Positions 19,787 to 47,290 of a DNA stretch of 64,000 nt are shown here, in pieces. The position numbers and the translations under genes are program-made. A model generated the notes under the pieces. That model searched no databases, was not told the DNA's origin, and was given only the letters and a program-made list of their open reading frames with translations. Source of the DNA: Polytrichum commune (Eukaryota > Streptophyta > Polytrichopsida > Polytrichales > Polytrichaceae); the NCBI GenBank assembly GCA_950295325.1, contig OX485803.1, forward strand, positions 34,053,554 to 34,117,553, read 5' to 3'. Within the stretch, counting starts at the first letter, position 1. Every line of letters begins with the position of its first letter.

Positions 19787-19841
19787 GGATAGCTTGTGAT
19801 TTTTTCCTCTTCGGGCTAGCCTAATGGTATGCGATCGATGG

Positions 19842-20566: not shown

Positions 20567-21179
20567 TCGTCTGGTGACCATTTCTAGTAAGTGTATCTTT
20601 GTGATTTTTGGTGTTTGTAATGTCTTTGTGTGGTAATCTTTGTATGTAACACTATATTCGTTAAATTGAGACTTTCTCTAGTCTCAAATTAATATATGGA
20701 TCAAACAACATTCCGTGTTCCGAAACTATATTGAGAACAATCTCAAATATATTATATGTTCTAATATCCCAAATCTATTATGTGTGGACATAAGCACATA
20801 TGGTAGAGCACTCAACACCAACTTCATCAACAAAAACACTTTGGGTAGAGCACTCCAAACTAGTTTCACCCAAAAAACATATAAAATGATTTCTATTATT
20901 AGCATGGTCAATAAAATATAGACCTTGCAACATACAAAGTACATGCAATAAATGCATTTTTCTTCAATGGAAAATTTAGTCCCAAACTTAATAAAAAAAT
21001 GAACTTCACAACTGTATTGAAATATAGTAAATGGATATTCATCCAACCCCAAACAATATAACATTCGCAAGTTCTACCCAAACTTTGCCCCAAGTTTGAG
21101 GAGCACACATATGAGTAATATGTAATTCAACGAATTACATATTACACTATAATCATGCTAACACAATCCTCTCAACTTC
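20567..21179. other. AT-rich sequence 3' of the transposase-like gene
   Basis: No gene is visible. It may hold the terminus of the large two-gene element, but I could not identify terminal inverted repeats by eye. Confidence 0.35.
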
Positions 21180-21868
21180 TCATTCAACGTGGGTTGCTTC
21201 TTCTGCGATCCGAGCAAGGTTGTCTTTTGCAAAAGTTATGTACTTTTGAGGGATGGACACTGATCCACTATAATTTTTCCGTGGTTTCCATGCTATGAAT
21301 ATAGAATCTGTATCTACCCAAGATGGACCGTGCTTAGAATCCACCTTCCACCGAAAGTTAGGGTTTGTATCCCAGCCTATATAATGCCGAATCACATCTT
21401 CATTCCTTGCCGTCGGTCGGTAGTACTCCACTTGTATTTGTCGAAAATGAGGGCTGGAAGTTACAAAATTGGGTTTGGACAAAGCTCTTGCCACCCACAC
21501 TGGCTTTGCATATGTCTCGTCTCCAGGACGCAAAATGAGCATATAACCTTCATGACAATCCACTGCAATGCGGAAAGATGGTGGCGGACGACTACTAGCA
21601 GGCCCCACGTAATGGTCGTCCACATCAAACTCCTCTCGAACCTCTCCATTTCCCAAAAGACTAGCCTCCAAAGCTTGTACATTGACACGTGTTTGTGGCC
21701 AAAACCCATGCCTTAAAGTAAGGGGTGTATCTTGATGAAGGTTTGCCAAAGCGCCACGAACACGTGTCCAATATTGTATCCAACTTCCGTAACGAAGCCA
21801 ATACGATCCACCAACATCCGCTACCCTCAAACTCTCATAATATTGTATGAAGCCTGATATGCCTTTAC

Positions 21869-23812
21869 AAATGTGTGAGCCCAAATTGATGCCCACATTG
21901 GTTGTTAACACTTGTAAAACATTACAAGTGGTGTTTTGGTGATTTATGATTATTCACAAAAATATAAAAAGAGTGAAGCTTGAAGAAAGCTTAGTTTGAA
22001 GCATTAGGCTTTTGTGGAGTGGATTTAAGTAGGAGAAGGACAAACCTTGGTAAAGTGTGGTAGGTAGAAAGCCAAGGTTAGTTAAATGTTTGAATTAGGA
22101 TCCTTGTTGATCATTTGAGGGAGGAAGGCTTAGGAGATAGGATTAGAGCCTACAAAGTAGGAGGAGATCTCGAGGGCTTATCGTGAGCCTTGAGGGTGCT
22201 CACCCCCTCAAACTCACTATATAATTCTTCATTCTTCCCTCACTCATCCTCTCTTTCCTTCGTGCTCCAAGGCACCCCACGGGTTATAAGTGTGGGTGTT
22301 GGAAGCAAGATTGGAGCACATGTGTGTGCTTAGTTTGTAGTTGGAGAGCCAAGGCTATTTGGCCTTGAAGAGGGCTTGACCTCTTGACTAGAAGTAGCTT
22401 GAGTTTGAAGAACTTAGAATTTATCTTATAGCTTTCAATTGTAGTACTTGGATTTACATAATGATTTGGACTTATAAGTATTATGTAAGATTGAGCATCT
22501 AGTTTTGTTGGAAAGTTTATATTGAGAGTGGAGCACTTAGTTTTGTTAAGTATTCCTTCGGTTGAGGGCCGGATACATTTTTGGGCATAACCTGTTGAGA
22601 TCCTAGAGTTTACAATCCCAACCGGTTACATGTCCACATCCTCCTGTTTTCCTTTATTAGATCGGGTTATATTCTATAGTCCCCTCTAAGCTGGTCAGAC
22701 AAATTTATGGGCATAACCTGTTGAGATCCTCCTGTCTGCAAGTCCAACCGGTTACAGGTTGAGAGCCTCCTGTTTGCAAGTCCAACCGGTAACCTGTTGA
22801 GATCCTCCTGTCTGCAAGTCCAACCGGCTACAGGTTGAGAGCCTACTGTCTGCAAGTCCAACCGGTTACAGGTTGAAATCCTACTGTCTGCAAGTCCAAC
22901 CGGTTACAGGTTGAGAGCCTACTGTCTGCAAGTCCAACCGGTTACAGTTGAGATCCTACTGTTTGCAAGTCTAACTGGTAATATTATTAGTTTGGGGTAT
23001 ATTCTGTAGCTTTCTCTAACTGGTTGGATGGGTTTTGGGCATAACCAGTTGAGGTCCTACTGTTTGCAAGTCCAAATGGTTACAGGTTGCCATCCTCCTG
23101 TTTTTATTTATTAGCTTGGGGTATATTATATAGATTCCTTTGAAATGATCGGGTATTTTCAGCAGTCTTCAACTTCAACCGGTTATCTCTCAAGCTCAAC
23201 CTGTTCATTCGTAACTAACTGTCGGTTCTCCCCGATCATTGATTGAGCCGGTCTAAACCTTAGGCATAGTTAGTTGAAAGCTAACTTAAGTATTAACATT
23301 AGGATAAGATTAGTTGAAAGGGGAAGGACTTATGCTTAATGATATTAGAAGCGAGCTTAGGCTAAATCACGTACGGGGCTCATACAACACTAGGAGAACA
23401 AGAGCCATTACTTGTGATCACAAGTAGGGAGGAATTATTAAAGCTTGTGAAACTACCATAAGGCTTACAAGTATTTTTTTTATTACTTAAGCTTACATGG
23501 AATCTACAAGGGAGAGCTCATGTAATAGTGTGGAGTCGACGGCAAGGACTCGCTTCACAAGAGGGATGTCTTTGAAGGCGTGTGTGGCAAAAGCGGCCGG
23601 GTGGACGTTGGAGAAGTACAAGGATGTGACATTACCCGAGATTAAGGAGTGTAAGAAGACATAGTATAGACTTGGCTAAGTTGTGTATATTCCAACGATA
23701 GATTGGAATCATACATTGTGTTACAAAGAGAGAAATCTCTACATGTCATTATAAACGTCTCCATTCGGGCTAGGACGAAATTGAAGGGTGGAGGTTTTTT
23801 GGTGACAAAATG
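21869..23812 (+). mobile_element. solo LTR of a retrotransposon (1,934 bp)
   Basis: The element 21874-23807 begins TGTGAGCCC and ends GGTGACA, giving the TG..CA ends of an LTR. A 5-bp duplication AAATG flanks it (21869-21873 and 23808-23812). Joining the flanks restores the reading frame of the interrupted transposase-like exon (EDICKGISGFIQ), matching EDIIKDVSCFIQ in the second copy, so the borders are secure. On the plus strand a TATATAA at 22218-22224 is followed by a pyrimidine-rich stretch, as in an LTR promoter. No internal retroviral coding region or second LTR copy is present, so it is a solo LTR. Confidence 0.85.
22700..22985. repeat. 38-bp minisatellite inside the solo LTR
   Basis: At least six head-to-tail units of exactly 38 bases, marked by AAGTCCAACCGGTTACAGG, have ACCG at 22747, 22785, 22823, 22861, 22899 and 22937. 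Decayed relatives extend to about 22590 and 23215. Units alternate between GAGAGCCT and GAGATCCT. Confidence 0.9.
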
Positions 23813-26376
23813 TCCTCCAAATTCTTCATAGGTATTGGTTTGCAAGGCTTAGGCTCTCCGTCAGGCAACATCGTCCTTCCCTTCCTATCAACACGCCATA
23901 CAAGGAGACCCTCCGGTGGGCTCCAGTCTTGTGACGTGCACAACAACTTGTATTGCATGGCGGGGACACCATCGTCACGCACGTAGAACCGAAATTGTTG
24001 TGCCTTCGTATGTCCGATCAATTGGTGAGCTCCGCTTCGAATATACGGTTCTATAAATGCCTTGAAGTCAGGAACCTCCTCGATCATATGGGGGATGACG
24101 GGAATGTTCTCCAAATCCATGTACGACTTCATCAACAATGGAATTGTTGGAAAATCCTCCTCGCGCAACTTCATGCTCCACCGCCCAAAAGATGCATCGA
24201 TATCGTAGTGCGTGTGGCCTACCAATAGAAAGGACACAAAAACCTCCTTGAAAATGCCTTTCGCCACCAACAACGACCGATATGCAAAAACATATATACT
24301 TTTATTGTCCTTCGCACAATTGTCCAATTAGACACGCAGAGTTGGGGACAACTTCTTGGCAATCACATCTTCACTTGGTGGCTCCGGCAAGGAGTGCATG
24401 TATACATCTCTTCCATCCAATACCACTTCATATAGAGGTGTTGATCCCGAGTTTTCAAATAACAATCTTGATGAATAGGACGGCGGTTTGTCCAAATCAC
24501 GTAAAAGCTTTGCAAATGACCCTATCGTGTGGTTTGAATCCGCCGGATACAAATCAAGAGCATAATGAGCATACTTGACATCGCCATGTCCATGTGCAAT
24601 CATTCCTGCAAAGCCAACCCAATGGTTTAATATTCAACTATAACACCAAAAAATTCACATGGTGTACATCTATGGCCCCAAGTACAAACCTAAAAGCACA
24701 AATTTGTGTTGAGGTAACGCAATGCAATTGTTATCCAAATCACCTGTAACCGAAACAGGAAGCTTAAAAAGGCCGTCCGTAGCTTTGATTCGATTTGCAA
24801 AACATGGTGAGACTGTTTTGGCATGGTCCATTTTGTCATGGATGATTGTAAGGACCTCCAAAGGCCTGGAGATGGACAAAGCTCTATTTGTGTAGTAATC
24901 ATTACGGTGTGCCTCTTGCATGTTCACATGCTTGAAATAGTTCATTTGATGTGCGGCATAGGACTCTGTCCCCATCGTGTGTGCATCTCGAAGGCGTTTC
25001 AACTTCTCGCATTTGGAACAACGGGCAAATTTGTCGCCTCGTCTTTTTGTAATGTATTCGCTAAAGTTCGATTTTTTGATAGCACTTAGTTTCGACAACG
25101 AAATTGGGTCTAACCCGGCCTTCTCGCCAACTGCGTTTACGTCCAACAATATGTCTTTCCATTTCGTGCCTGTAGGAAGAACCTTCTCCACAACCTTTTC
25201 ACCGGTTGAAAGTGTGCGTGTTTTGTGCGGCATTGCATCGGCAAGGGGGACAATGATGGTTGCCAGAGTCGCTGTTGCTTGTCTCGTTGCTTCCCTTGGT
25301 TTCTTTAAGCCCGTATTCCCATGGTGACGGGACCGGCGTCCTTCCTTGGCATACGCGGCTTGTCTATAAAATTTCGCTTTTGACACACCGTGAATGGTGT
25401 ACCATGCCGTACAACACACGTCTATGCTCTCAAGGGTGATGACCTTGCGACCCGCTCCGTTCACATGTATCGCCCTATGGACATCAAGCTTTTTGGTGGA
25501 TCTTAGACGGAAATCTCCAAGCCACATTTCCTCGCGGATGGCCTTCAATTTATCCCTTGGGAACAATTGGCAACAACGATGTACACAACAATCCTTTGTG
25601 GCAACTTCTCTAATAGACTCCTCACAGAGCAACCTTTGACGTTTACACTCATTTGCAGACGGAGTAGGACGTGCCAATGTATCGTACTTCCGTAGGCCTT
25701 TGCGTGGCCGAATGTTTGCTTGGAGCTCCTGTTGGATTTGGATGTGTCGTCGCTCATGCTAATGCAAATTAACCCCATCAATTGTCACATTCCTCAACGG
25801 CCACCTTCGCAACGAGAACCTATGAGTTGGATTCACTTCGGAATGTACGAGTGATTCCAATATAACAACTCCAACGTCGTCGGTGCCAAGGGGGTTTTCA
25901 TCAATACAATCTTGTGGATGTGTGTTACGACAAATACCCTCCGCCACAGTAACTCCATTGTCATTAACAAGTACCACATCCAAATTCACCCATGAAGCTC
26001 GTGAAAGCCCAACACATTCCACAGTGGGGCAAGAAGGGGCAGATGGCGAAGGACTCCCCAAATGACCTTCATCTGCACTGTCACCAAAACTATCCTCCCC
26101 GACAATGTCTAGGTCATTCCCAGAAGAAGAATGGGAGTTGCCCATGTCTTCAGAGAAGGCATCCCCTCTTCCACCAACTCCTTCCATTTCGCCTACACAC
26201 ATGCATATGAAACCTCAACAAACATGCACACCATGTAAAGGTTCAAAAGAATCAAATATCGAAAAATGCAAGACATCATGATAAATGGGGGCACCGAGGA
26301 TAAAGACATTTGCAACACAACTACAATGTGAACTCCCAATACTTTGCGCAAGTTCCAAAAACAATTTTGTCCAGGG

Positions 26377-26885
26377 GTTTGGGTCGACCGACCCAAACCT
26401 TCTCATGGTCAACCTCCAGCCGCCCATGCTGGGGTTGGGGTTTGGGTCGGTCGACCCAAACATTCTATGTCAAGGGGTTGAGGGGTTTTGGTCAAGCCCG
26501 CCCACACTGGTCCAGGGGTTTGGGTCGACCGACCCAAACCTTCTCATGGTCAACCTCCAGCCGCCCATGCTGGGGTTGGGGTTTGGGTCGGTCGACCCAA
26601 ACATTCTATGCCAAGGGGTCGAGGGGTTTTGGTCAAGCCCGCCCACACTGCTCCAGGGGTTTGGGTCGACCGACCCAAACCTTCTCATGGTCAACCTCCA
26701 GCCACCCAAGCTGGGGTTGGGGTTTGGGTCGGTCGACCCAAACATTCTATGCCAAGGGGTCGAGGGGTTTTGGTCAAGCCCGCCCACACTGGTCCAGGGG
26801 TTTGGGTCAACCGACCCAAACCTTCTCATGGTCAGGCTGAAACCCGCCCACACTAGCGGAGGGGTTTGGGTCGGCCGACCCAAAC
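26377..26885. repeat. 141-bp tandem array carrying eight 22-bp palindromes
   Basis: Units of 141 bases repeat about 3.6 times just upstream of the minus-strand transposase-like gene. Each unit has two palindromes with arms GTTTGGGTCG and CGACCCAAAC and centre AC or GT. Copies start at 26377, 26440, 26518, 26581, 26659, 26722, 26800 and 26864. Only the seventh (one arm base changed) departs from perfect symmetry. Long apparent proteins with repeated VDRPKP- or GSVDPNP-like motifs on both strands are translations of this array. Position suggests the 5' leader intron or promoter of the gene ending at 21180. Confidence 0.93.
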
Positions 26886-26999
26886 CTTATAAGAATCACA
26901 CTAAAACCCGCAAAATCCGGCGGATAATGCGGTGGATAATCCGAAATTCCATATGATTTTGAGATCATTGCAAAGTTCCCGGTGGGCTTCCATGCTGTG

Positions 27000-28214
27000 G
27001 ATAGGTGCTCATGAACTTGCATGCTGTGGATAAGTGCTAATGAACGGCAGCATGCACGAACCTTGAAGTATAGCTCCGACTAAGAGTTCTCTCAACGAAT
27101 TCAAGAGTGGGAGAAGAGCAAAAAAGGACAGACTTTTGGAGGGTGCGTCCCTTTATACTATCCACCTCCGTTTCTCCGACTTCCTCATTGGATGCCTTTC
27201 CCGCCTTGTTCTCATGCAGAGGTTATTTCAAACCTCCTGACATAATTCCCCGTTTTCTGTTTATAGTAGAAAATGCGCATCTATCAATGCCCCTCTGATA
27301 CCCCAGCCGTCATATGACTTAGTCTATGATATTTAATCTATTTATTTTGTTTTGGGTGGATATGACACACGCCATTGGGAGGAACAGTGGCGGCCACATT
27401 GATTTTTTCAAGTGTCATGACGGTATACTTTAACCAATATGTAGACCAAAACACAACTCCATTCAATGTTTTCATGTGTAAACCTATTTCGGTGGGGTTA
27501 GGGCCATTTGGAGGTTGCAATTATGAGAGAGTTTCGAAGGCTTGAGGCAATTGTCATGATGAATAAAATTATTTATTTGTCTCCCCTAAACCCTAAACCC
27601 TAAACCCTAAAACATTGCTCTATTCTCTCGCATGCAATTGTGGCAATGACGGATATGACATGCACCATTGGGAAAAGGGTGGCGGCCACATAATGTTTTT
27701 CAAGTGTCATGAGGGAAAATGTTTGTGATAAGTGATTTAGAATAAAAACTTCTACAATATCACTCTAATGCATCATATACATATTAAATCATTATATTAC
27801 TATATTTGAACTCAAACATTACGGTATATTTTAACCAATATGTAGACAAATGAAGTCTAAACATTGTGTAACGCCTTATGGTAAGAGTCACAAAAAATAC
27901 AATAGTTAAAGTGTAGTTATTAAGATCCTCGCATGAAGAATTATTAATATTGAAAACAAATGATGTCATGACAAAGTTGATTTATTGTTCCAAATCTCAA
28001 TTTGCAGCAATGCCAGTTACAAAAGCTTTTAAAGAACATGTTATGTCATTTGTAATGATTGCATACAACATTGCTCTATCTCTCGCATGCAAGTGTGGCA
28101 ATGACGAACATATGCGGACGTCGTTAAGGGGATACAAACCACCAATGTTGCTTTTTAGTTCAATCTTTCAATGATATTTGAATCCATCAAGTTCACTTCA
28201 AGTTTACTAATGTG
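27000..28214. other. spacer with short repeated blocks
   Basis: No gene is visible. Blocks around GGTGGCGGCCACAT with TTTTTCAAGTGTCATGA occur at about 27385-27420 and 27680-27715, and TTTAACCAATATGTAGAC occurs at about 27430 and 27832. This indicates partial local duplication. Confidence 0.45.
27585..27611. repeat. short interstitial telomere-like tract
   Basis: Nearly four perfect CCCTAAA units, the complement of the plant telomere repeat TTTAGGG. Too short for a functional telomere. It supports a plant origin. Confidence 0.85.
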
Positions 28215-29010
28215 TGTGAGGAAAACATCCAAAGTTGTACCCTAACCCCTTATGACATCCACAACATGAAATCTGTATTGAATAAACACAAGACCAATAT
28301 TTAGTATAATATCATGTTTAAACATCCCAAATAACATTGCAGTTACTGTAACCTTCCTATTAGACTCTTCTTCATATACAAACAACATCTATTACATCTT
28401 GCGCCATTATCTAATATATGCGGAGGGAACATTGAATAACAAGATGAATTTGATGTTGTATTTATCCGATTTAGTCTTATATTACATTCCATATATTAAA
28501 TACCATGTATATTGGCGACTATGTGATTCATCAAAGTGAGACAAATATCCAAAGTCCGGCCCCTTAACCCTAATAACATCCACAACATAAAATGTTGTTT
28601 TTCCTAAACACAAGACCAATCAGTATATCACGTTTAAACGTCCCAAATAACTTATTAACGTAATCAAGATTATCTTTACTATAACCTTCCTATAAGACTC
28701 TTCTCACCATTCAGACAATGTTATACGTTAATATTGGATAGATTAATATGTTATAACCCTAACTCCTAAACCCTAAACCCTAAACAACAAATCTCCTAGT
28801 TGTTCAGTATTGCCTCCATATACAAACAACATCTACTTTATCTTGCGCCATTATCTAATATACGTGGAGGGAACATTGAATAAGAACATGATTGATTTCA
28901 TGGCTTCATACGATGTTGTGCTTCTCCAATTTACTTTTATATCACATCCCAAGTAAATATATCATGATCCACGGTTTATTGGCGACTATGTCATGCATCA
29001 TAGTGAATAT
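28215..29010. repeat. diverged direct repeat pair, ~330-470 bp units
   Basis: 28215-28540 and 28541-29010 share ordered blocks: ATCCAAAG, ACATCCACAACAT, AACACAAGACCAAT, TTTAAACRTCCCAAATAAC, TATACAAACAACATCTA, TTGCGCCATTATCTAATATA, GGAGGGAACATTGAATAA and TATTGGCGACTATGT. The second unit is longer because of an insert that includes a telomere-like CCCTAAA tract at 28755-28785. No coding potential is visible. Confidence 0.7.
28755..28785. repeat. short interstitial telomere-like tract
   Basis: Three to four imperfect CCCTAAA units within the longer unit of the direct repeat pair. Confidence 0.75.
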
Positions 29011-29394
29011 CTATGGGATTTACTAAAAACTTGAGCATGTTAGCATGTTGAAATAAGGATCATGCAATTCAAAACCCTGACAAAATGCACTTTGGGAAGG
29101 TATTCATTTAGGCTCCACATTCAAGTCTTCTAAATTTCGGAATTTCATGTTGGGGGGTGGGGGTTATCTTTTTTATTCATGGAATATTGTGTGAGTTGTT
29201 GGCATCATTGGTAAAGTCTAAATGTCAATGATTACATCGTTCAATGTCACGCAATTGTATTATTTTCCTAACGTGCTCAAACAAAAGATAAACCAATGAT
29301 TTCAACTTGTTTGGAAAATTAAGGTTATGGTGTCATGTAAGTAGGGGTTGAGTCTTAGTTTTAGCATAAAGTTGCGTTGTTAAAATCCATTAGT

Positions 29395-30783
29395 TATATA
29401 AATGGTTAGTTTTGTAGATTACCGCAGTTGATGTGGAACCTTAGGGTACTCCAAAGTGTCGTTAAAAAATTAATCCCCGCTAAGGGGTTTGAGTTAGGCT
29501 TTAGGATTTTGGGTCCCGCGTAACCCTATTTCCGTTGGTGCCCTAATCTTGTGGGCACCCTATTCGTGCGGTTGGGCGCCAATTCCCGAGGCAAACAAAA
29601 CCCCAACCGTCACTTTTTTTCATTCTTTCTCTCTCTCTCCTCGCCAAGCACTCGCTCCGCACCTCGTTTGGAAGCGCCGCCTCTCTTGAAGCGCGGCTTT
29701 CACGAAGCGCCGAGGCGATTCAGGCTCTCTTTAGCTATTTCCCTGCTTTCTCTTTCTCTCTACTTCGTCTATTTCCCTGCTTTCTCTTGCTCTATTCACA
29801 GTAGAACTTCTGCAATCTTAGAAGTTAGGAGGAGTTTAGAATAGAACAGAAACCTACGGAGGAGGGTTTCAGGGCGTGAAGGTGAAGGGAGTTCGTAGAG
29901 GAGTCGTGAAGTGTTTTAGAACATTCTGTGAGAGCTTTAGTTTGTGTTTCGAAGTGCATGTGATTGTAGATTTGTATCACATGTGTAATTTTTTGCGGGT
30001 TTTGGAGTTATTTTGTTTTTGGAGTGCTCGTGAGCTTTAGGAGTTCTTCAAAGATAATGAGGAGGTGTTTGAGAGATAGAAAAGTCATTTGAAAGGGTCA
30101 CTTGTTGTTTGAGAGATTCAGTTCTTGTTTTGAGAGTTTCAGTTGTTGTTTGAGAGATTCAAAAGCTTGTTGAAAGACACAAGCTTTTGATCTGTGTTGA
30201 GAGACTAAAGAACTGTTTGAAATATTCAGTAGATGCTTGGAAATTTCATAGTGTGTGTGAGTTGCATTCTGTAGTTTGTGTGTTATTGGAAGAAGAACAC
30301 CATATCCACTCCATCCTTGCTGCAACAACAACCCTGAAAGGTATTCTATGTTATTAAATCAAACATGTATTTGTTAATTCATGTTGTTGTAGCATACACA
30401 ACGCATAAGCACTGTATATGCTACATGCCAAGTTAAAAAAACTATATTAAAATAGAACAGTTTGGGGAGACGACCCAAACACAGCCTGCTGTTTGGGTCC
30501 CTCGACCCAAATCACAGCCTGCTGTTTGGGTCCCTCGACCCAAACGCAACCTCTACAATATAAACTTATCAAGATATCCTTGATGACAATATAAAATGCA
30601 AATCCACCCAAGATAACGAAATGCCATATAAACATATAAATGAAGTTAAAAAATAACAAGACACAATTCAAAAATAAATGCGTTGATGCATTACATTTCC
30701 CTTCCATCACGTGACATTTAATCTATTGTGAAGAAGTTTGGGTCGAACGACCGAAACTAACATCCTTGCTTCTTTCTTTGCAG
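29395..30783 (+). promoter_or_regulatory. putative promoter, leader exon and 5' UTR intron of the large plus-strand gene
   Basis: A TATATAA lies at about 29395-29402. A CT-rich leader-like tract (29620-29645) and GC-rich, apparently non-coding leader follow. A good donor (AAAG before GTATTC at 30341) and acceptor (TTTGCAG ending at 30783, directly before the ATG) mark a 443-bp intron in the 5' leader. Four palindrome copies lie in that intron. The exact transcription start is not determinable. Confidence 0.4.
30460..30757. repeat. four palindrome copies in the leader intron
   Basis: Imperfect copies of the 22-bp palindrome start at 30460 (one base short), 30491, 30524 and 30736. Those at 30491 and 30524 share the right arm CGACCCAAA and are 33 bases apart as a tandem duplicate. 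Confidence 0.85.
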
Positions 30784-33700
30784 ATGGCCCCAAAGAAAAG
30801 ACCAGGAGAAAGGTGGTTCATGCTTGCGCCAGACGTGTTATGGCAGGAGCACGAAACACCTCAAGATGACTCATATGTCCCTAAGGACGGGCTTGTCCTC
30901 GCCTGGTCAATCCAAGTAGTAAAAACCTCCCTTTACAAAATGATATTCGTTGTCAAAGTAGGGACCGTGGAAAAATATACCTGGGCGACTCTTACGGGAT
31001 GGGAGGTGGCGTCGGTCCAGTCTCTTGGAGACTACGCAGACGTCATCCTTGAGAACAGCGCTGTGCAGAATGCTCATATGTTTCTGCACCAGTTCGTTGA
31101 ACCCTTTGACGCTACATATGCAAGGGAGTCATGTGTCGAACCTGACGTAATCAAACCCGAGACAATTTTCATCGATGCCAGTACATCGAACACAAAGGTC
31201 TCGAGCCGGTTTACGAAACTAAAGCATGCAATCAGCGTGCTCAACAAAGCCCTGCAAAGCAAAACGAAGTCTCAGCAACCCGTCAGGCGGAAGGTACCCA
31301 CTGAGGAAGGTGCAGGGTCGTCAAGGCCTCAATCGGTGAGGATGCCGCAACCAGTCCCGGCTAGCTCAAGACGAACCACTCCATCGGAGACACCGGCGGT
31401 TAGCGAGACTCCTACGCCTTCTGGCAGCCGCCAAACAACTCCCTCCAAGAGGGCGAGAGAGTCATCTGTGATGACTGACGAGCCAGTCTCTCCCGAATCG
31501 CGCATGCCGAAGCCAGGGCAGGAAGTGGATGCAGGGGAGATCCAAAAAATCGTGAACAATTTCACGACCAAGTGCTCCCATTGCTTTTTCATGGGCAGGG
31601 ATTTCAAATTCGACGTGAACATCAGTCAGTGTCATCTCGCGCCACCAGAAAAATGTGTGCGGGCAAAAGAAGACGCCTACGTCGATTGGATAATCGCGCA
31701 GATCGTTAGCGAACAATTCAAAGACGACATGCAAACCATTGTAGTGATGCCCCAGGGACTGAAGAAAATGCCTACCCCTGAAATGTGGGCGACAATTCAG
31801 AAAGGCAATTTTTGGCTCATAGACGGCCAACACAGCGTTGAGGCTTCCAAGAAAATCCAACTGATGACTGAGTGGGACGATCCCAACCATCAGAAGGAGA
31901 AGTTGAAGGTGTGGAAGGCACTTGTGGTGTGGTCTGACGATGAGACCCGACTGAGCGACATCTCCCGTTACTTTAACATGGGCAATAAGAAAAGGGCCTA
32001 CCAAGCTTCCTGGATAAGGAATATCATGGCCTCGCGGGAGGTGTGGGAGTTCTATGATAGGCCTCCCAAGGAGAGGGAGAATGCGAAGGACAAGAATCCC
32101 AAGTGGGAGGTGAGTATTGTTTGGGTCGATTGACCCAAACTCCTTTTGCAGCTTTATTTGTGTATTTTGGGTCGCTCGACCCAAAGTCTTGTTGCAGTCA
32201 TGTTTTTTTAGTTTGGGTCGATCGACCCAAACTCTTGGTGCAGATACTGGTCATGATATGTTTTGGAAAACACATGTACATATCTAACATGCATTCAAAT
32301 GATTGTTTTGATCACATGCAGGACTTCAAATACCAAATGATAAATAAATTCTCCTCCATTGATAATGCTAGTCACAAACATAAGAAATACAACGAGCTTA
32401 GAGGGGAGATTTATTTAATCACAGCATCTGACTCCGTTTGGATGAAGTGGAAGAGTGTATTTGAGAAGTATGAGACGGGTGAGCTCATCGACCCGGACAC
32501 AGGAATTTTCTTCAACCAAACCACGCGCTTCAAACAAATGAAGCCTCTTGTGAGAGAGTTCTTTAGAACTCTTCAAGGCCTTTCCGAGACGGAGATGGAG
32601 AAGGCGGCGGCGCATATCCTGCATTTCATGCCCACGGCGAAAAGGTGCTGGGTGCACCCGAAGATTGTCTTCTTAAAGCCCAAATCCTTCGTCCCTTCAT
32701 GCTACACCATGAAGGAATGGACGGAGAATAGGAAAAAGAAGACAACTATAGTGCAGAAGCTGCATAAATTGGTGCCGGAGAGGAATATTGTTGTGGACGG
32801 CGAGGTTCATGAGGCTAACTGGAGAGCATTCAAAGCTGAATATAAGTTCACCAGTGCCTCCATGGCGGCTCTAATAAGGGAAGCGGGGGACGACTTCCTG
32901 CGGGCCAAGATGGTGAAGGGTGGGAAGAACCGGGCGCTTCCCGACCACACAGCGCGTGCGTTCTCGAACTTCATCAAGGAGAAGAAGATTGTCCAGTTTG
33001 AAGGGGACGCTTACTTCAACCTTGTCACCTTCGAGCCTTTGAAAATTCAGGGCTGGCCAGGTCAGGACGCCAGAATGGCCATAAGGACGAAAGCAGGGGG
33101 GCGTTTTCCATTCGGAATGATAGATTTCAGGAACATTCCTGGAAGCTCATTTGAGGGTACGATGAGCACATTGTTTTACGACCCCTTCCTATCTAAGTTC
33201 GTCGATTATGCGAGTCCTAAGTTCAGGGAGATTGATATCTGGCTATGGATAGTCGAAGATAGGAGGGCGGAGCAGGTGTACGACCTTGTCCGGAAATTGC
33301 AGCCGGAGTATGCAGTCTCCAAGTCTCACTACATCGCCGCACCGGCGGAGGGGGCCTACACGTCGTTGAAGGACAAGAAGACCAAGGTCGTCAACGTCCT
33401 GTGTTTGTACTTCGTGTACAAAGCGGAGTTGTTGAAGGTGCCGAACCACCCTATATCCCGGATGGACAAGCTCTTCCAAGTTCCAGATGGGTTAGGTGCC
33501 AACAAATGCCTATACGACGAGGCCAAATACGCAAACTATCCTGCAGATGAGCTGCGGATGGAATTCTACATGCGGATGCTGAGGACCTTGACTAGGAGAG
33601 GGGACTGTATCTTCAACGTGTTCGGGGGCTCGAAACCCGTCTATGCTGCCATGGTAAGTTACATTCTTTAGCTCTTGCGCAACTTTGGTCGTTCGACCAA

Positions 33701-36602
33701 ACCATGCTCTTTCTTGGTTTGGGTCGGTCGACCCAAACTAGGGTCTGTCTTGGTTTGGGTTGGTCGACCCAAACTAGATATTGTTTTTGGTCTTGTTTTT
33801 TGTCTTGCAAATTCTAATTTCTATATAACTTGGATTGTGTAGATGTTGGGGTTGAACATCTACTCGTACATAGAGGATGGCGATCTGCAATTTTACAGGA
33901 CGCAAAAATCGCTGGCAAAGAAGATGGATATCCTCGATTGGATCCCGGGAAGCTACGTGGACGAGGTTGTTGAGGGGGGTGAGAACCCTCTTGATAGGGC
34001 GAGGCGGATCAACCCGGAAGAAATTGCGATGAGGGCAACAACCCAATTACCCGAACCTCTAGTCGGGTTGCATCCGGGCAATCCGTCCCGTACAGGAGGT
34101 GGAGAGCTGGAAGAGGAGGAGGAGGAAGAAGAACACGGAGAGGAGGAAAAGGAGGGGGATGTGGAAGAAGGGGCAACGGGATTCACGCAAGAATCCGAAG
34201 CCCCTCAGAGGAAGAAGGCTATGCGTGTGGCAACCCCGCAGAGTAAGATGATGCCCGTCCTTACGGTGGACGATGCGAGGGACATGTACTCCAGGGACGC
34301 GACTGCCACGTTCCGGGAGAGGAGGAAGTTAAAGGGAAAGAAGCTCTATGGCGATTACGCATTGGAGGAGACCATTGCCATTAGCAGCGAGGACGACGAC
34401 GACATTGAGCTCGCCAAACGGCTCAGATCGGATCCCCCCTCCCCGACAGCGTTCGCAGGCATGGTTAGGGTGAAACCCGAGGTCCTCACTGTGGAGGAAG
34501 CCAACGAGAAGATGCGTAGAAACGAGGAGCAGCGCGTCCGCCTGCAGAGGGCTGCTGCGGAAGAACCCTCCGTGCGGAACGAGGTCGCAGAGCTGAGGGC
34601 TCTCCTCTTGGAACAAGAAAGACTAAGGGCGATGGCCCAACCTCCATCCAGCGCCGACTTGATATCGCAAGTCATACAAGGGATGTGGGCGCAAGGATTG
34701 GTGGTGGCTCCGTCCAGCTCGTTTCCGCACTTGCCCCCCGGTTTCCCAGCGCAGAGCATCCCTCAGCACCCAGTGTCGCAAGGGTCATTCAGTTTCCAGC
34801 ACATGATGCGGCCGCCCCATGTTCCGTACGCGCCGGTCCAACAAGTGGACGATCCCAACATCTGGCGCGTATCTGGAGCCTCCTCCCCGTTGGGCCCTCC
34901 ACCACTACGGCCCCCCATAGTCATGGCGCCCCCTCACCAGGCGGACGATCCGAGGATGTTTGGGTCGACCGACCCAAACCCACCGTCGACTGTAGTGCCC
35001 CAAGGCGCCTCCCCCGATGCAGGACAGTTTGGGTCGGGCGACCCAAACCCCGCAGCAGCTCAGTCCTCCCTTGACGAACTTGTGTCTCAAAAAGACACAA
35101 CCATGTTAGATGTTGAAGGCCTCCAAGGGCCTGGTGATACCTCTACTCCTAACCAAATCGATGAACCTATGCATGATGCATATGCGGAGATTGGTTTAGG
35201 ACAAGGGCCTGATGCTCAACCTTTGCAGGACAAGGTCCCTGACGTAGGCAGAGAAGGCGGTGGCGAGAGAGGTGGGGCACCGGGGACGGTGGAGGCATCC
35301 ACATCGTCGAGACATGACCAGGGCGAGGTAACACACTGAGCCCTCCCAGTTTGGGTCGACCGACCCAAACTTCCTTGGTCATTGTCTTGTTGGCGTGGTC
35401 GTGTCCCCCTTAGCTATGAGGAACTACACCCCCCGACGCACCCAACAACGTGCTCACCCCCGCGATCCCCTTCGTCTCACCTCACTCGACTACGCTCGAC
35501 CTTGGCGGCGCGCAACCAATTTTGTAGATGTAGAATTAGGATAGTGTGAATGCCCTCGTTCACCGCGCCCCCCCCCCATAAAATTGTACATAGAGATTTG
35601 TAACAATAAAATTATTATTTTTGGCGCCCATATGTTAGCATCCGTGTCCCAATGTATGTTGTTCCCCTTGTATGTTTTTGTTGCCACCAATGGTCCAATT
35701 CTTCTTGTGTTTGCACAAAATTTCCGTTCTGCTTGAATTAAACATAGCATAACATAGTCCTCGCCGCCTTCTCTCGCTCGTCGCCGCAGGGATCGGAGCA
35801 TAGCGTCGTGGCTCCCCACCGGTCCTCCCCGAGGAGCGTGGAGGACAGCGCGGTGGTCCCCCCGATTTTGCCCTCGCCACCTTCGCCTCCCAAGACCCGG
35901 TTCCTGGTGCTAGACCTCAACGGGGTCCTCGTCCAGTGCGTGCACTGTCCCAGGGTCCCCACGGTGCCTTTCTGCAAGCCCGAGGACGGGAACTACGATG
36001 GACCCCCCGCGTACATCAAAAGCAAGCTAGTGTACCTCCGCCCGTCCCTTCGGCGCTTCCTGCAGGTCGCCCTATCCAAATGGTGGGTGATCATTTGGAG
36101 CTCCATGAAGTCCGAGAATACCCAGGCCGTCGTGGAGTTCATCTTCAAGGGACTCCAACCCCCGTGCTTGGTCCTAGGACATGATTCTTGTAAAACATTG
36201 TACACCCCCGAGGGCAGGGTTGTGAAGAAGCCCAACAATCCCGCCGTAAACCAATTTCTTAAGGTCTTGAAGCCAATCGTATGGGACCAGCGCCCCAACA
36301 TGGTCAGCTGTCCCTACGACGTTCGCCCCACCCGTGACAACACGTTGATGGTGGACGACAGCGCTTCCAAGAACATTTTGAACCCGACCTCGAACTTCAT
36401 AGTTTGCCCGACATGGACGGTCGAGAAGGTCCGAGACCGCTTTTTGTTAGACCTACTTAAGTACCTTCAAACGCTCGTGGGGAGCGGACTACCCGTGCCC
36501 CGGTTCCTTAGTTGTAATCCGATAGGCGAAAGATACATGGATCCGAAGGACTATATGTACAGAGAGTTGTATGCTCACGCGAAATATAATAAACTCATTT
36601 GA
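30784..36602 (+). CDS. giant ParB-like / HAD-phosphatase fusion protein, four exons
   Basis: Exons 30784-32109, 32322-33653, 33843-35327 and 35790-36602 join in phase 0 at GT..AG introns (donors GTGAGT, GTAAGT, GTAACA) to give about 1,651 residues. Exon 1 (1-442) has a Ser/Pro/Thr-rich linker and then NFWLIDGQHSVEASKKI. DGQHS at 347-351 resembles the ParB/DGQHR nuclease-like box. Exon 2 (443-886) ends GDCIFNVFGGSKPVYAAM, reminiscent of motif I of N4/N6 DNA methylases but without the usual FxGxG. Exon 3 (887-1381) has an acidic stretch near 975-997, coiled-coil-like helices and a Pro-rich tail. Exon 4 is an FCP1/NIF-type HAD domain: LDLNGVL with Asp1423, IWSSM near 1485 and Asp-Asp 1570-1571. 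The second motif-I Asp is Asn (DLN), as in a plant HAD subgroup, so phosphatase activity is uncertain. All exons are open and codon use is GC-rich against an AT-rich surround, so the gene looks recently active. Whether exon 4 truly ends at the TGA or splices onward is unsettled. Confidence 0.7.
32119..32232. repeat. three palindromes in intron 1 of the coding region
   Basis: Copies at 32119-32140 (centre AT, one arm mismatch), 32165-32186 (arms altered at the ends, centre CT) and 32211-32232 (perfect arms, centre AT) lie 46 bases apart in the 212-bp intron. The first begins nine bases after the splice donor. Confidence 0.92.
33683..33774. repeat. three palindromes in intron 2 of the coding region
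   Basis: A shortened copy at about 33683-33702, a perfect one at 33717-33738 (centre GT) and a near-perfect one at 33753-33774 fill the 189-bp intron between exons 2 and 3. The last two are 36 bases apart. Confidence 0.92.
34958..35048. repeat. two palindromes inside coding exon 3
   Basis: Perfect-armed copies at 34958-34979 (centre AC) and 35027-35048 (centre GG) are translated in frame as MFGSTDPNP and QFGSGDPNP. They lie in the Pro/Ala-rich low-complexity tail of exon 3, where an insertion would be tolerated. Their spacing of 69 bases keeps the frame. Confidence 0.93.
35349..35370. repeat. palindrome in intron 3 of the coding region
   Basis: A perfect-armed copy (centre AC) begins 22 bases after the splice donor at 35328, within the 462-bp intron before the HAD exon. 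Confidence 0.93.
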
Positions 36603-36718
36603 GATACTACATGGTGTGCCATTGTGTGTGATATATTATGCCTCAATTGTATATCGATTTTCACATGCTCCCCCCCCCTCCCCTTGGGTTTTGTTTGTTT
36701 TAATTTTGCCATCAGCGT

Positions 36719-37510
36719 TTGGAGCCCTCGATTGAGATCGTCAGCGAATCAAACTTGGGGGGCTTCTTCTACAAGACCGTCTACGATGCCGCGTCCACCA
36801 TCGACTACTCCAAGGAGCCTATTGACGCCGGTGTCGTCGATAGCCCCCCACCCAAGCAAATCTTCCGGCATTCTCCGTCCCCGTCGCCGCTCAAGGGCAT
36901 AAATCGCAAATGCGTCCGGACGTCCCCCTCTCGGCCCGGCGGCAGTAGTACACCTCAACGGCGGCTGCGGATGGACGCTCGGCCTACGAAGAGTGGAACC
37001 CTTCCTATTCCTTTGCGGGACGCATTGCCCCTCCTCGCCAACTCCGACGGGAACGCCCCCGGTGACAAGGTGAACCCCCCTCCCCCCCCCCCCAAAACAT
37101 GGTTAATCGCGCATTACAATCATCCCGCACTTAAAAAATGAACGTGTGACACGTTTGGGTCTTCTTCCCTAAACTAACACGTGTGTTCATGCATTGACGC
37201 GTTGCAGGTTGCTCCCACCCGTAAACCTATGCGGGCTAGTGTGTCCGTCGAGTTGGAGCGTTTCTACTCCATGACCAGAAATGCAAGACAGTCCACTTCA
37301 TCGTATTCGAATTCTTCGTCGTATAATTCGGGCGGCCGACGGAATCCAAAATGTGTTATTGATGGCGGTCACCCCAAGAATGGCTATAGTCGCGGGGCGG
37401 AGATTTTCAGGAATGTTGAAGCAATGCGAGCAAAAGAAGCCGCAGCAAAAGAAAAAGAGGCAAAAGAAAAAAAAGCAAAAGAAAAAGAGGCAATCTCCGA
37501 GGCTAGATAG
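36719..37510 (+). CDS. probable downstream exons of the large gene
   Basis: Two open stretches join cleanly: an exon to 37069 (donor GTGAAC) and 37208-37510 (acceptor TTGCAG). They read ...GNAPGDK then VAPTRKPMRASVSVELERFY and end in a Lys/Glu/Ala-rich helix (KEKEAKEKKAKEKEA) before TAG. The 5' border is unsure. Acceptor CATCAG before 36719 would be phase 0. Acceptor GTCAG at about 36743 would pair in frame with a donor GTATGC in the final codons of the HAD exon, removing its TGA. The first part contains a Ser/Pro-rich linker. No family is recognised. It may be an alternative C-terminus of the large protein or part of a neighbouring gene. Confidence 0.45.
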
Positions 37511-37639
37511 GCCATAGTAGGCGTAGGGTTTTGGGCCATAGGCAATATGATTTTGGGTCGCACTATCCAATGGATGTGTGGTGTTAGCATGCTATGCATT
37601 TTACATGCCATACTTTGTATGTTTTTTTTGCAATAATAT

Positions 37640-37915
37640 AAGTGTCACATGATTTCCCCTTCCATATGGTCTAAGGTTTGGATTGCCCTACCTAAACCAT
37701 CACAAATACGAGTTTGGAATATTTTGTATGTTATATTATATTGCTTGACATATCTCCCCTTCAATATGATCTATGGTTTGGATTGCCCTGCCTAAACCAT
37801 ATTCATACAAGCTCTCATATTTTGTGTGTGATAATATGAATGTTTTAAGATTTCCCATTCAACGTGGCCTAAGGTTTGGATTGCTCACCCTAAACAATCA
37901 CGAATATGAGATATT
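37640..37915. repeat. ~100-bp tandem repeat, three units
   Basis: Three imperfect units are marked by AAGGTTTGGATTGCCCTACC or close variants at about 37672, 37773 and 37871, each preceded by TTTCCCCTTC- or CTCCCCTTCA-like sequence. They lie just beyond the large gene and could be its 3' flank or the end region of a mobile element. Confidence 0.75.
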
Positions 37916-40900
37916 AATGGGGTTCTTGGTCTAAACACCCGCTTCAAAGTGTTCGCATCTTACAACTTTCTCCAATATGTGTTCCATTTATCCTTGTCCT
38001 TATTTATGTGAATGTCTCAAAATGCCCAAAAAGTCTCAATTTAACGAATATAGTGTTATGTGCGGTAGTTGGTGTTGTGTGACATTTCTTCGTGTGGTTG
38101 TTGTATGGATGTATGGCGGAGTGGGTTGTGTATTGAAATGATTTGTAAGTTCTGAGTTTAGGGTTGCATAATACCTTTGGGAAGTTGGAGCAGCCTTTGA
38201 TGCGTGTGTGTGGACTGTGTGTGTGGGTTGTGGATGGGCGGTGGCGGCTGGTTTTTGGTGTAGCTCCTCCGAGAGTGCCATCTACTCCCTGCTCCTGCGT
38301 CGTTGGAAGGTGGCTGCGACGACTGTGTTGGAGGTTGTTTAGGTTGCCGGTGTAGATCGCGAGTATAGAGACAGGGGGTGTGGAAAGTAGCATTTTTAGG
38401 TTTAGGTTTGAAGAATTGCAATGCTTGCTGGGGGCTGCAGAGTGTACAGAACACTAGTACAATGATAAGAGAATGTTTTTGAAGACTACTCCATTGTTGC
38501 TTGTTGGATCTGGTGTTTGGTGTGTTGATTGTCGCCGCTAGGGTTCTGTGTCTTCGCTTATGGGACTCCTGCTTGTTTTTCCTTCTGAGGAGGTTGTCCT
38601 TACGCGCGTGCTGGTGCAGTGCTGTGGGGGGTGGTTCTTGTGTCTTATGTCTAGTCTCTGCGTTCAAGTTCTTCACAATGGCCTGCGGCAGAGTGGTAGC
38701 AGGTGTGTGTTGCGGTGCGGCGGGAGCGGCCATCAATCTCTCTTCAAATACTAATAACTACTTAATAACTACTCTTAGACCCAATTACTTAAATGGTTGA
38801 TACCCGGCTTCCAACCTCCCTTGAAGTCCACTTAATAGCAAAGCCTTCCTGATGGCAAAACTAGTGGTTACCGGCTTCTCCCTTGTGTTACCTCGATCCC
38901 CTTGGCTGCTAGCTCCTTCTTGTCTACAACTAATGTCTCCTCTTAGCTACGGCTGTTGTCTCCATTGTCTTTGGCAGCTACCTTTCTCATTTCGGTTGTT
39001 ATCTCAACTCCTTGAGTCCTTCTAAACTTAGATCTAATGCTGCTCAAACACACTCACACCTCAAAACCCTCTTCTCCCGACATTTCTCACACAACCAAAC
39101 TTGTGATTGCAAATACATACACCCCCCCCCCCCCAATTTATATCCCTAATCTTTCATTTATCATATGCTCACGATAGGTAGTAACCCCTCCATCGTTACC
39201 AAAGCACGAGCTTCTAGACAATGGTTGGTCAAAGGACCAAGAACACAATGGTGCCAACACACCGTTCTTCTCTGTCTTTTCTTATGGAGTTATCATCTCA
39301 CGATTAGAAGCAATGCTACTAGCTTGGAGGATAATTTGACATTGAAAGAAAGGGAATGGCTAGTAGTATGCTTCCAGCTGCTCAAAAACTGCCCTTCAAC
39401 TAATGAATGTCACGATATTGTCTACACTAAATATGATATTTAGTGACACCAGTTCTAATTGTCTTGCTCAATACTAATTGTAAACTGTAGAAAAGTGTCA
39501 CCAACACTAAACGTTAACCCAACATCATTTGTCATTCCTTGTAAATTTGGGGGGGGGGGGATTAGAGTTACAGTGTTGTAATTACTGTCACTTACCAAAT
39601 GATTTTTCATCCAAATTTCAATCATCCATGACACTATTTCATCACAAGTTGCTGACAAGAGGAGGTAGAGTTTTGGCCAATGGATGAACTCATCCATCAT
39701 CTATCCATCCATCATCCATGACGATATGTGTTCAGTTATTCATAAGAAATGCCACCCGAAAAGTTACCATAGTGACATTAAATATGGCACTAAATATCAT
39801 ATTCAGTGTACTTCTTGCAAGCCCGGTGAAGAAAATCTAAGGTAGGAAATCATAACCCATTAATGACCACTAGTGGTGCACTAGAGTAGGAGCAAAGTGG
39901 TTCTTGTGCGGATCCAAAATGGCTAAATTAATTAGAAAAGTGGTGGTCCGAAAAGGACGCATGGCTATATGAAATGCAATGATTGGCCGGATAGGTGTTG
40001 TTTCACACCACTTGTGATCACTTTTGGGTGCCATTAAGTTAACCGTTTTGCGTGTCTTTGTATGTGGAGTAGAATATTTTGATGTTTAATTTAGGGAGAC
40101 TCTATTGTACAAAGAGGGGGTTTGACTTACTCGCCTCTTTGAAAAAATGTAATTGATTATTTACAAGGAATAAGATTACGAAACAACTTGCATTCCTCAT
40201 CATTTCCTCTTCTCCATCTCTGAAAAATATTGCACAAAATTTCAAGCCACTCTTTCTAGCCAAATCACCTTATTTTCACGGGTCATGGTATTCATACCTT
40301 ACTTTTATGCATCATTGTGAGACTCAAAAACTTTCTCTATGGAAACTCTTTTGAAGTTTGTGCGCCTAGGTCAAAGGCTGATCCTTGCTTACGTAAATTG
40401 CTCAAGGAGAGAAATCATACTATATGGCCATGGCCATTGCCATTGAGACACATTGCAAGTGCAAGGAGGCAGGCAGCCCATCAACATTGCAGGAGTTTTG
40501 AGTTAATCATCACCACGCGGGATTCGGGAACACGCCAGACTGTAGATAATTTCACGACTTCCTTGCCAGCATGCAAAGTTTCAGTATATTAACAATCAAG
40601 ATGGCAATTGTTATCAGCATTGGACTCAGTATCGATCTTCCAAAGATTGGTGGCAGAATCTTTATTTGCAACCTAGTATTTAGTACTAGGACTTTCACAA
40701 AGGAAAGTTTCCCAACACTAAATAATATAAGCATCTTGAGATTCAATAACAATCTTGGAATTTCTGCCGATAGCTTGTTGTAGAACTGGGTTCCTCAATA
40801 TCCAATACATATTCTACTGCTCATATGACTAGTTGAACACATCATTCTTCGGCTCATTGCCGAACGTCATGATCTTCAATCACCCAGCCTGATCAGGAAC

Positions 40901-41662: not shown

Positions 41663-43547
41663 TTGATCTCTCGATCCAACTTTCTGAATCCTCGTGAGGT
41701 GCCGGAGCTGTATAAAGCTGGAGGAGAAGTATGAGGAGGGTGGATCTGGTAGCTGCAGCTGCTGCAATGGAAGATGATGGTGAGAACTCCGAGGACGTTG
41801 TGCAGATCATATAGCTGATCGACTCCGTCATACGTGATCTGGACACCTTTACAACGTCGGCGTCGCCGCGTAATTCCACATCAGGAAAGTGTTGTCGACG
41901 TGCCATCTGCCAACCGATGATAATCCTTCATGAGTCGTGCCTCGACGCTCCTGCATTTGGATTATCTCCTTCCGGTGCACTTTAGGCAAACTTTAGGCTT
42001 TCGACTGCACCTGCATGCATGGTCACTTGCAGGTGATGAACGCCGACTTGAATCATGTGCATACATGGGGAGTCAACAATCGACTTTCGTGGAGTAGCTG
42101 AATCAACTAAGGCCTGCACAATGTAGTCTCCGAGTGATGAGGGAACGCTGCACAAGAACCCGCAGTTACCTCCGACTTAGTGCTCACTGCGTCTGACCAA
42201 TCTATACTGGATCCGCCTTGGTTGTGGTGCTCAATCGTGTCAAAGTGTAAGCCAACGCTGGAGATGCATTTGGCATTTTCTTCCTCGTAAGTACCCATAG
42301 ATTTCTTACATTACTCTGAGCTTCAGTGTTAAGTCCTTCGGCTATGGCCGGTTCTTGGGCAATACTTAGATGTATAAACAGCCAAGAGTCCTAAACCCTA
42401 AATCTTTGAAGCGCTCAATACGAGCTTTGATTCACAAAGTGTGTAGACCTCTTTGATTCACATGCTGGCCGTGGGACTCCATCAAGTGCATGTATGTGTA
42501 AATGCACATTCGGATGACCACCAAAGACGGGAAGCTGATGATTAAAAATTCACAGTTCTGGATCTTCGATGCTCACAGCAACTTCAATGAGCGTGTCGAA
42601 ATTCTCAGCAACTATTTCCCACATGGCTTCCTGCTCTGCATCATAGCCAATTTTGCAGACATGGAATGCCAGAAGGATTCATGAGAGGAAGGATCATGTG
42701 TTGCATACAATCAATTCTAATTACAAACTAGGATCAGCCTAAGCACAGAGCGATGCATCCATTCAAATTGTTCAGTGGAGAAATTAAAAGATATTCAACA
42801 GATAATACATTCAATTCAGTGCTCAATTTCAAAAAGTTGGGATTTTTGAATATCTTCAATTGTGCACTCTCATGGAAGAGTGTAGGTAGCTGGATTGAAA
42901 AAAAATCATGCAAGTTGTGTTTGGTTGGTGAATCAGAACTGACAAACTTTTGAAACATGTTATCCATTTGAAAAGCATTCAAGGGATATCTCAGTACTGG
43001 ACAGTATGTATCCACTCACTTAGACTGACGTAGAATGGCAAGGACAATTTTCACATTTTTTCTGAATTGACATTTTGCAAATTCTAGTCAAAGTTTTCGC
43101 CCATGGCCCATGACCCAAATTCGACAAGCATTACCCTAGAATGTTGTCTAGATTGACACAAAATGATTATTTTCTAGAAGAAGTTGAGTAGAGAAGAGAG
43201 GTTCCTGGGGTACAAGGGCTAGTAAACAATTGGGGTATGTGTATGATCTAGAACTTGCTACATATAGTAGAGCAATAAAATGAAAACTGAGAGATGTCAA
43301 TTCTAAGCACTGGTTGTCTAAATCTAGAGTTGCCATGTTGAAGATGTCCCAACCATCCTTGAGGGCTAGAAACCCAGAATTGTTAAAGAGAAAGGATGTA
43401 ATTTAATTCAGTTCAATATAATGTGTACACACATCCGACTAGTGCATCCGGTGGTGAATCAACATTGTGGGATTTCATTGGATATTATTGGTGGTTGTTC
43501 ACAACCAAACAACTTGACCTCTACCAAGTTCTCATTGGTTTGATTTA
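41663..43547. other. upstream region of the secreted-protein gene and intergenic sequence
   Basis: The first few hundred bases (to about 41950) are GC-richer and probably include promoter and leader of the minus-strand gene. No other gene is recognisable. Confidence 0.35.
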
Positions 43548-46440: not shown

Positions 46441-46490
46441 AAACAAGTAAGCCAGAACAATCAACATTGTTGAACTCCACCCATTAAGTG

Positions 46491-46510: not shown

Positions 46511-46689
46511 TAAACTAGACATAGAATTGCCAACCCCAAATAAAAAAAGGCCACACATGAAACATGGAAACATATTCAAAAGATTATGTTATCATACGCT
46601 ATCATTGTGAATCAACAAATTTCCACTATAAATTATTTCCAAATAACATGCATCTCAATTTGGACTCATGTGCATATTGCCAATTGAGA

Positions 46690-47290
46690 GGAATAGGAAA
46701 AACTTGGGAAATCTTGGGGTGGTTCATGAGCCTCCTAATGTAAGGAGTGAGCTTGGCCTCTAGGAATGTGTCCTTCATGTTGCCTTTCCAAAAAAGGGGG
46801 AAGATGACGGTGCCTGGAGGTTCAAGACACTGTTGGCAGGGTTGTCATCGACGAGGAGCGTGTTGAGAGGGTTGGGCCACTAGCCAGCAAGAACATTGCG
46901 TAGCATGGGAATGAGGTCCCAAAGCTTGGACTTCAAGACTTTAAGAAATTGTTGCCCGCCATCCCCACCCGCCTTCAAGACTATCTTGTCAAGAAGTTCA
47001 TCACAAGACTCTTGCCCAAGGATGAGGCAAGGGGGGTTGAGACCACAAAACAAGGAGGAGATGATGGGCTCAATGTTCTCAAGCAACATGGAGCTCCACA
47101 CTATCACGTGAGCAAAGTCTTTGACCTCTTGTTGAAACATCGCAAGCTTGGATGAACTCAGACCACCTAATAGTTAATGAGAGTTTCCCCATTGTAGTCC
47201 ATGTCTTTGGGGCTACGGAAACGGACATGGGAAACATTTTGAACTTGCATGGAGTGGTCTAGAATCCCATTGAGATTGAAAACAATTTTT
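46690..47290 (-). pseudogene. HAD (FCP1/NIF-like) phosphatase domain relic
   Basis: Minus-strand segments align end to end with the HAD exon at 35790-36602. They include FNLNGILDHSMQVQNVSHV (about 47275, against LDLNGVL in the intact gene), PKDMDYNGE, HVIVWSSMLLENIEPIISS, NPPCLILGQESCDELL, QFLKVLKSKLWD and NTLLVDDNPANSVLN (about 46850). Frameshifts and stops near 47165 and 46890 break it. The ParB-like and methylase-like parts are not visible upstream. It lies on the same strand as, and 250 bases from, the transposase-like relic, unlike the divergent arrangement at the intact locus. Confidence 0.7.

Follow-up and report, generated by a model that had tools for sequence, protein, structure and literature searches.

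The window, by which we mean the whole 64-kb stretch of moss DNA analysed here, harbours a DUF7869 transposase-like gene and a divergent giant gene (Table 1). Both sit in one 17,412-bp unit, because they are enclosed by an exact 29-bp pair of terminal inverted repeats (TIRs) that lies beyond the random range. The pair was found by self-comparison of the window, and its identity drops sharply both outside and inside; in each of 15 order-3 Markov sequences with the length (64 kb) and make-up of the window, exact separated inverted repeats were at most 14–18 bp long. Exact inverted repeats of more than 29 bp are confined, in the window, to one fold-back structure at 11.6–12.7 kb, and the 24-base core of the TIR, searched across the 64 kb with up to three mismatches, matches only the two ends. 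The repeats lie 504 bp past the stop codon of the DUF7869 gene and 519 bp past that of the final exon of the giant gene, and they fit the terminal inverted repeats expected of a TIR (cut-and-paste) DNA transposon. Candidates for the target duplication are TA, the outer two bases of the TIR, or TG just outside it, and no longer duplication was seen by eye at the element ends. Ends of the CACTA/EnSpm (CMCT) type, taken as CAC..GTG with a 3-bp target duplication, were considered and rejected: CACTA does occur at position 4 of the repeat, but the outer triplets TAA/TTA are not direct repeats.

Table 1. Positions of the features of the element and of the decayed second locus within the window
Feature	Position	Strand	Basis or content
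Whole element	20647..38058		17,412 bp including both terminal inverted repeats; exact 29-bp inverted repeat
Left terminal inverted repeat	20647..20675	+	29 bp, or 27 bp should the outer TA be the target duplication
DUF7869 transposase-like gene, broken	21180..26187	-	PF25273 1.1e-30, reading frames, comparison with locus 2
Insert within the DUF7869 gene, 1,938 bp	21871..23808		Absent from locus 2; carries a 38-bp x 6.9 tandem array
Eight palindromes upstream of the DUF7869 start	26377..26885	+	141-bp x 3.7 tandem array, likely 5'UTR intron
Likely 5'UTR intron of the giant gene with three palindromes	30491..30757	+	Two palindromes within a 33-bp tandem unit
Giant gene exon 1	30784..32109	+	Predicted PH-like domain, disordered linker, predicted ParB/Srx domain with DGQHS
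Intron 1	32110..32321	+	Three palindromes, 46-bp tandem unit
Giant gene exon 2	32322..33653	+	Helical region, then predicted beta-class DNA amino-methyltransferase fold
Intron 2	33654..33842	+	Two palindromes, 36-bp tandem unit
Giant gene exon 3	33843..35327	+	Low-complexity region, preceded by the probable end of the methyltransferase-like domain; two coding palindromes
Intron 3	35328..35789	+	One palindrome
Giant gene exon 4	35790..36602	+	NIF/FCP1-type HAD domain, PF03031 8.9e-14
Probable exons 5 and 6	36716..37069, 37208..37510	+	Open coding-looking frames; degenerate palindrome (37153) between them
Tandem array just inside the right end	37651..37906		98-bp x 2.6; decayed palindrome-like motifs
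Right terminal inverted repeat	38030..38058	-	Exact inverted match to the left repeat
Locus 2, decayed DUF7869 gene	43536..46212	-	Three pieces with 70-78% DNA identity
Locus 2, decayed HAD domain	46634..47155	-	34% identical to exon 4, tblastn 3e-19

The first-pass annotation of this DNA had placed a DUF7869-type transposase-like gene and the giant gene at one locus, and both points hold, the pair being enclosed by the TIRs and the minus strand at 23770–24327 matching PF25273 with 107.1 bits against a curated cut-off of 26. This copy of the element has no intact transposase, given an in-frame stop at 24328–24330, in the middle of the domain, and the 1.94-kb insert; a further stop lies near the N-terminus (25759–25761), unless it is spliced out. 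The insert could be read as an intron, since a GT..AG pair is present, but by hand reading the frame shifts, and we treated it as an insertion. Part of it (22578–23239) is 71–76% identical, in inverted orientation, to a stretch at 58.3–58.6 kb (58348–58563), which suggests a further repeat family.

Among 610 candidate proteins, 273 matched as homologues of the DUF7869 protein, the best 120 of the 273 being 47–93% identical over the aligned part. The giant protein, with 42 and 44 homologues, likewise belongs to a family with many members, and all three counts (42, 44 and 273) could mean many copies per genome or one per species. The acidic boxes HDKMD, QLDN and HTHDDID are conserved in the alignment consensus of the DUF7869 relatives and suggest a transposase of RNase H type. 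CMCT transposases have been defined by C(2)C and H(3–4)H between the second D and the last E in the part of the source cited here (PMC12730594); by eye, a 32-row alignment contains no CxxC between QLDN and HTHDDID, the catalytic residues themselves being presumed. Comparison of the DUF7869 profile with solved structures gave nothing relevant and no match to a transposase fold, and a text search of the literature for DUF7869 found no paper. The data suggest that DUF7869 is the transposase family of giant elements.

Exons 1–4 of the giant gene are open over 442 + 444 + 495 + 270 = 1,651 codons, in agreement with the earlier description of a divergent, intron-containing gene for a protein of about 1,650 residues with a DGQHS box, which lies in exon 1, and an FCP1/NIF-type HAD domain, which lies in exon 4. 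That description, a ParB-like/HAD giant protein, named two parts that were both found but was incomplete, as a DNA-methyltransferase fold is also predicted. Structure models place a PH-like domain at about residues 12–162 of exon 1 and a ParB/Srx (ParB/sulfiredoxin) fold at residues 274–405, and in exon 2 they predict a beta-class DNA amino-methyltransferase fold at residues 226–444, with the motif IV strand before the motif I strand. Across the 40 and 45 member sequences of the two exon alignments Pfam gave no consistent match, nor did PDB sequence profiles with these alignments give a relevant one, so the ParB and methyltransferase assignments rest on the predicted models. With Foldseek by itself, the best E values for the two models were 4.6e-3 and 0.093, neither of them under 0.001, and in the structure search for ParB unrelated FAD enzymes came close behind KorB. 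The exon-1 model has a pTM of 0.40. The helix-turn-helix of ParB proteins reads the parS-like site; its place here, after residue 405, was modelled with low confidence. The HAD domain was recognised by sequence, NIF (PF03031) scoring 51.9 bits in exon 4 against a cut-off of 21.8, and narrower NCBIfam HAD models scored far below their cut-offs.

The three enzyme-like parts have well-known signatures: an arginine motif, GxRR or GxHR, in ParB/Srx proteins, a DPPY catalytic motif and an FxGxG SAM motif in beta-class DNA amino-methyltransferases, and a DxDx(T/V) nucleophile motif in NIF/FCP1 HAD phosphatases. In the family alignment the ParB/Srx pocket arginine is absent and DGQHS stands at that place (DGQYS in P0038); DPPY is replaced by DFRxxP, whose D, F, R and P are invariant or nearly so; FxGxG is partly kept, as FGGSK in the window protein, with loss of the second glycine; and the HAD motif of exon 4 in this copy reads DLNGV instead of DxDxT, the second Asp being Asn. 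The missing arginine is conserved in the active-site pocket across the ParB/Srx superfamily (PMC5512222). Since all three signatures are altered, catalysis by the giant protein is doubtful. A viral or prokaryotic home was also considered and rejected, because viral contigs searched with P0004, P0002, A1, A5 and the palindrome, and genome contigs searched with A5, contained no relative.

Both genes were said to share a private palindrome family, and this is borne out. The 22-bp palindrome GTTTGGGTC-N4-GACCCAAAC occurs in 19 copies with at most two mismatches and in two degenerate copies, and all 21 in the 64-kb window lie inside the element, between 26377 and 37697, against a mean of 0.01 matches (up to three mismatches) in shuffled sequences. 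Eight are in the leader of the DUF7869 gene, three in the leader intron of the giant gene, three in intron 1, two in intron 2 and one in intron 3; two more are in the coding sequence of exon 3, where they read FGSTDPN and FGSGDPN, and the degenerate copies are in intron 5 and near the right end. Sixteen of the 21 belong to five tandem arrays with units of 141, 33, 46, 36 and 98 bp, which by eye have little in common beyond the palindrome. In the array at 26377–26885 the palindrome centres alternate between GACC and GGTC, which are reverse complements, and neighbours can pair over 23 bp.

The palindromes are a trait of the family, because in relatives the intron tails, open frames continuing into intron 1 or intron 2, encode this palindrome far more often than shuffled tails do. 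Homologues reaching the junction numbered 29 for intron 1 and 37 for intron 2, with tails of at least 12 residues in 19 and 19; 12 and 12 of these matched under strict scoring and 17 and 16 under relaxed scoring, compared with at most 1 and 0 for shuffled tails (four window rows were dropped, and P0042 was outside the input). In P0074 another variant, FGPxGPN, is present in two copies. Covariation of the two arms, scored by eye from the peptides with the ambiguous P0073 left out, gave L-Q 7, F-E 3, L-E 1 and F-Q 1 (one-sided Fisher 0.067), which is suggestive and not strong enough to count.

The second locus at 43.5–47.3 kb had been described as relics of the same transposase-like family, a HAD domain and a palindrome. 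The two gene relics stand, and the palindrome is reduced to a weak resemblance at 46490–46510. At this second locus the HAD and DUF7869 relics share a strand, unlike the arrangement at the first locus, and no TIR remnants were found. Taken together, the TIRs, the two genes, the common palindromes and a decayed relative 20 kb off support the proposal of one mobile element family, and from this anatomy the element is, or was, probably mobile.

Our preferred reading, to which we give a probability of roughly 0.6, is a large plant TIR DNA transposon with a DUF7869 transposase and a giant accessory factor that recognises the element's own palindromes and counters silencing. The DUF7869 gene would be, or would have been, the transposase of the element, and because it is broken this copy could move only with transposase provided in trans. 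The divergent giant gene would encode a chromatin or DNA factor, whose ParB-like domain, with the adjoining methyltransferase-like domain, would recognise the 22-bp palindromes packed, largely as separate tandem arrays, in the introns and leaders of both genes. Once bound, the protein may spread or clamp, as ParB does, and would mark the DNA of the element and keep its expression on against host silencing, as VANC does for VANDALs. Nuclear phosphoproteins, for instance the tail of RNA polymerase II, are possible targets of the C-terminal HAD domain. We favour a factor that binds its own element because the ParB fold is a natural palindrome reader and the methyltransferase fold a natural docking or writing module, and because the layout of the motif beside a non-transposase protein equals the description of VANDAL and VANC.

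In Arabidopsis VANDALs, which are MuDR-type elements (PMC12730594), VANC binds a motif and DNA methylation is lost (PMC5735166, PMC10398659). The VANC motif is concentrated in introns and upstream regions and has been spread by tandem repeats, the layout that we found here, and that of VANC21 is a 9-mer in one orientation (PMC5735166). Like VANDAL, the moss element has, beside an element-encoded protein other than the transposase, a short motif multiplied in tandem and placed in introns and upstream regions; unlike in VANDAL, this motif is a 22-bp palindrome, and the portions of these papers cited here mention neither a ParB fold nor a methyltransferase fold in VANC.

The element had also been put forward as an undescribed kind, which is true in part. 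In Ectocarpus, the 21.5-kb Sola1-1_Ec32 encodes ParB-like and N4/N6-type methyltransferase domains in one 1,104-residue protein, whose gene runs on the other strand from the transposase; further cases from green and red algae are cited as well, these proteins are regarded as a possible novel accessory class that binds and modifies its own transposon, and the giant families described there often have pseudogenised transposase genes (PMC12477816). The moss element resembles these as a giant DNA transposon with a predicted ParB-like and methyltransferase-fold protein on the strand opposite the transposase, a likeness of description, and differs from Ectocarpus Sola in its DUF7869 partner and in the length of its protein, at least 1,651 residues. 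The HAD domain, the PH-like domain and the palindromes are unnamed in the part of the algal description available to us (PMC12477816). Bce_0392 of Bacillus cereus, with a ParB domain fused to an adenine methylase and a reported nonspecific nicking activity, shares the pairing; it is prokaryotic, and no HAD domain or private palindromes are named for it in the sections cited (PMC5512222). Fungal DNA transposons of many lineages carry a TET/JBP gene thought to counter silencing (PMC12730594), a DNA-modifying accessory gene alike in kind, which encodes a dioxygenase, not a ParB/methyltransferase protein, and travels with other transposases. Among the matches listed for ParB with transposons or methyltransferases, the Ectocarpus paper was the only relevant eukaryotic case, and no match reported a ParB-methyltransferase transposon gene in a land plant; PMC12062965 added nothing relevant. 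As far as our searches go, what is new is the pairing with DUF7869, the presence of HAD and PH-like parts, and the palindrome family.

These results suggest that plant transposons may have, besides VANC and seemingly unrelated to it, a second arrangement in which a sequence-specific protein travels with its own binding sites; here the predicted ParB and DNA-methyltransferase folds are combined with a HAD domain and with a transposase-like gene of the DUF7869 type. They also provide a concrete target for studying how giant transposons escape silencing, namely the palindrome of 22 bp and the protein, whose predicted folds are known ones. In bacteria, ParB-fold proteins bind short palindromes, the parS sites, near their own genes. 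The moss locus also has palindromes near a predicted ParB-fold gene; it departs from the bacterial system in that DGQHS replaces the arginine motif, and binding here is only proposed. More speculatively, this could be a eukaryotic self-recognition of ParB/parS type, in which the giant protein would load at the palindromes in both genes, spread as a clamp and keep the element open or mark it as self, with protein and palindrome changing together across subfamilies; we regard this fuller version as tentative.

It is unlikely, in our judgement, that within the same transposon the palindromes are pre-mRNA hairpins, acting in splicing or in feeding or escaping small-RNA silencing, while the giant protein does something else. 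The 19 clear palindromes do lie in predicted transcribed parts, intron 1 (z -6.8) and the leader array (z -12.5, arms paired over 23 bp) fold far beyond shuffles, a G-T wobble is kept in three of the four clear palindromes with an arm mismatch, and the first intron 1 match falls three residues past the exon in 13 of 17 matching tails. However, palindromes inevitably lift folding scores, wobble is weak evidence since transitions are the commonest mutation, and two of the palindromes are in coding sequence. Moreover, the neighbouring gene encodes a predicted ParB-fold domain, and ParB recognition sites are themselves palindromes.

Rather improbable, too, is an enzymatically active giant protein that marks its own element as an N6-adenine or N4-cytosine methyltransferase. 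The predicted beta-class fold and motif order would allow this function, which has been proposed for the algal counterparts (PMC12477816), and DFRxxP appears to be under constraint because it is kept in P0093, a relative only 29–30% identical; against it, DFRxxP stands where DPPY should be and FxGxG survives only in part.

We consider it improbable to a still greater degree that the palindromes are internal binding repeats of the DUF7869 transposase and the giant protein unrelated cargo. Many transposases bind repeats, and the largest palindrome array is in the DUF7869 leader; known binding repeats are mostly subterminal, whereas the outermost 500 bp or so on each side contain no clear palindrome, with decayed ones near the right end only. 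That these are host genes between a chance inverted repeat is very improbable: a single copy with its ends in hand, the lack of a certain target duplication and homologues that could be one gene in many species would fit, but the 29 exact bases lie just outside both genes against 14–18 in all 15 controls, a decayed DUF7869/HAD locus with a different gene order lies 20 kb away, and the DUF7869 gene is broken beside an open giant gene.

Several other features of the window are recorded here. An open reading frame for a Dof zinc finger, introns and CCCTAAA repeats identify the window as plant DNA. The plant telomere repeat, CCCTAAA, is present in four exact units at 27584–27611, in the part of the element that separates the two genes, with a shorter run near 28765, and directly outside the left end there are cytosine-rich tandem arrays (19355–20257). 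Further out, 200 N in a row at 18001–18200 represent an assembly gap or a masked stretch. The fold-back region at 11644–12671 is a near-perfect inverted repeat with 328-bp arms, 98% identical, and a 115-bp exact core, either a fold-back or another mobile element. An open reading frame at 6187–6756 contains a DnaJ domain (PF00226, 1.3e-16), and another, on the minus strand at 52115–53383, encodes a Dof zinc finger (PF02701, 2.3e-32), a plant-specific domain.
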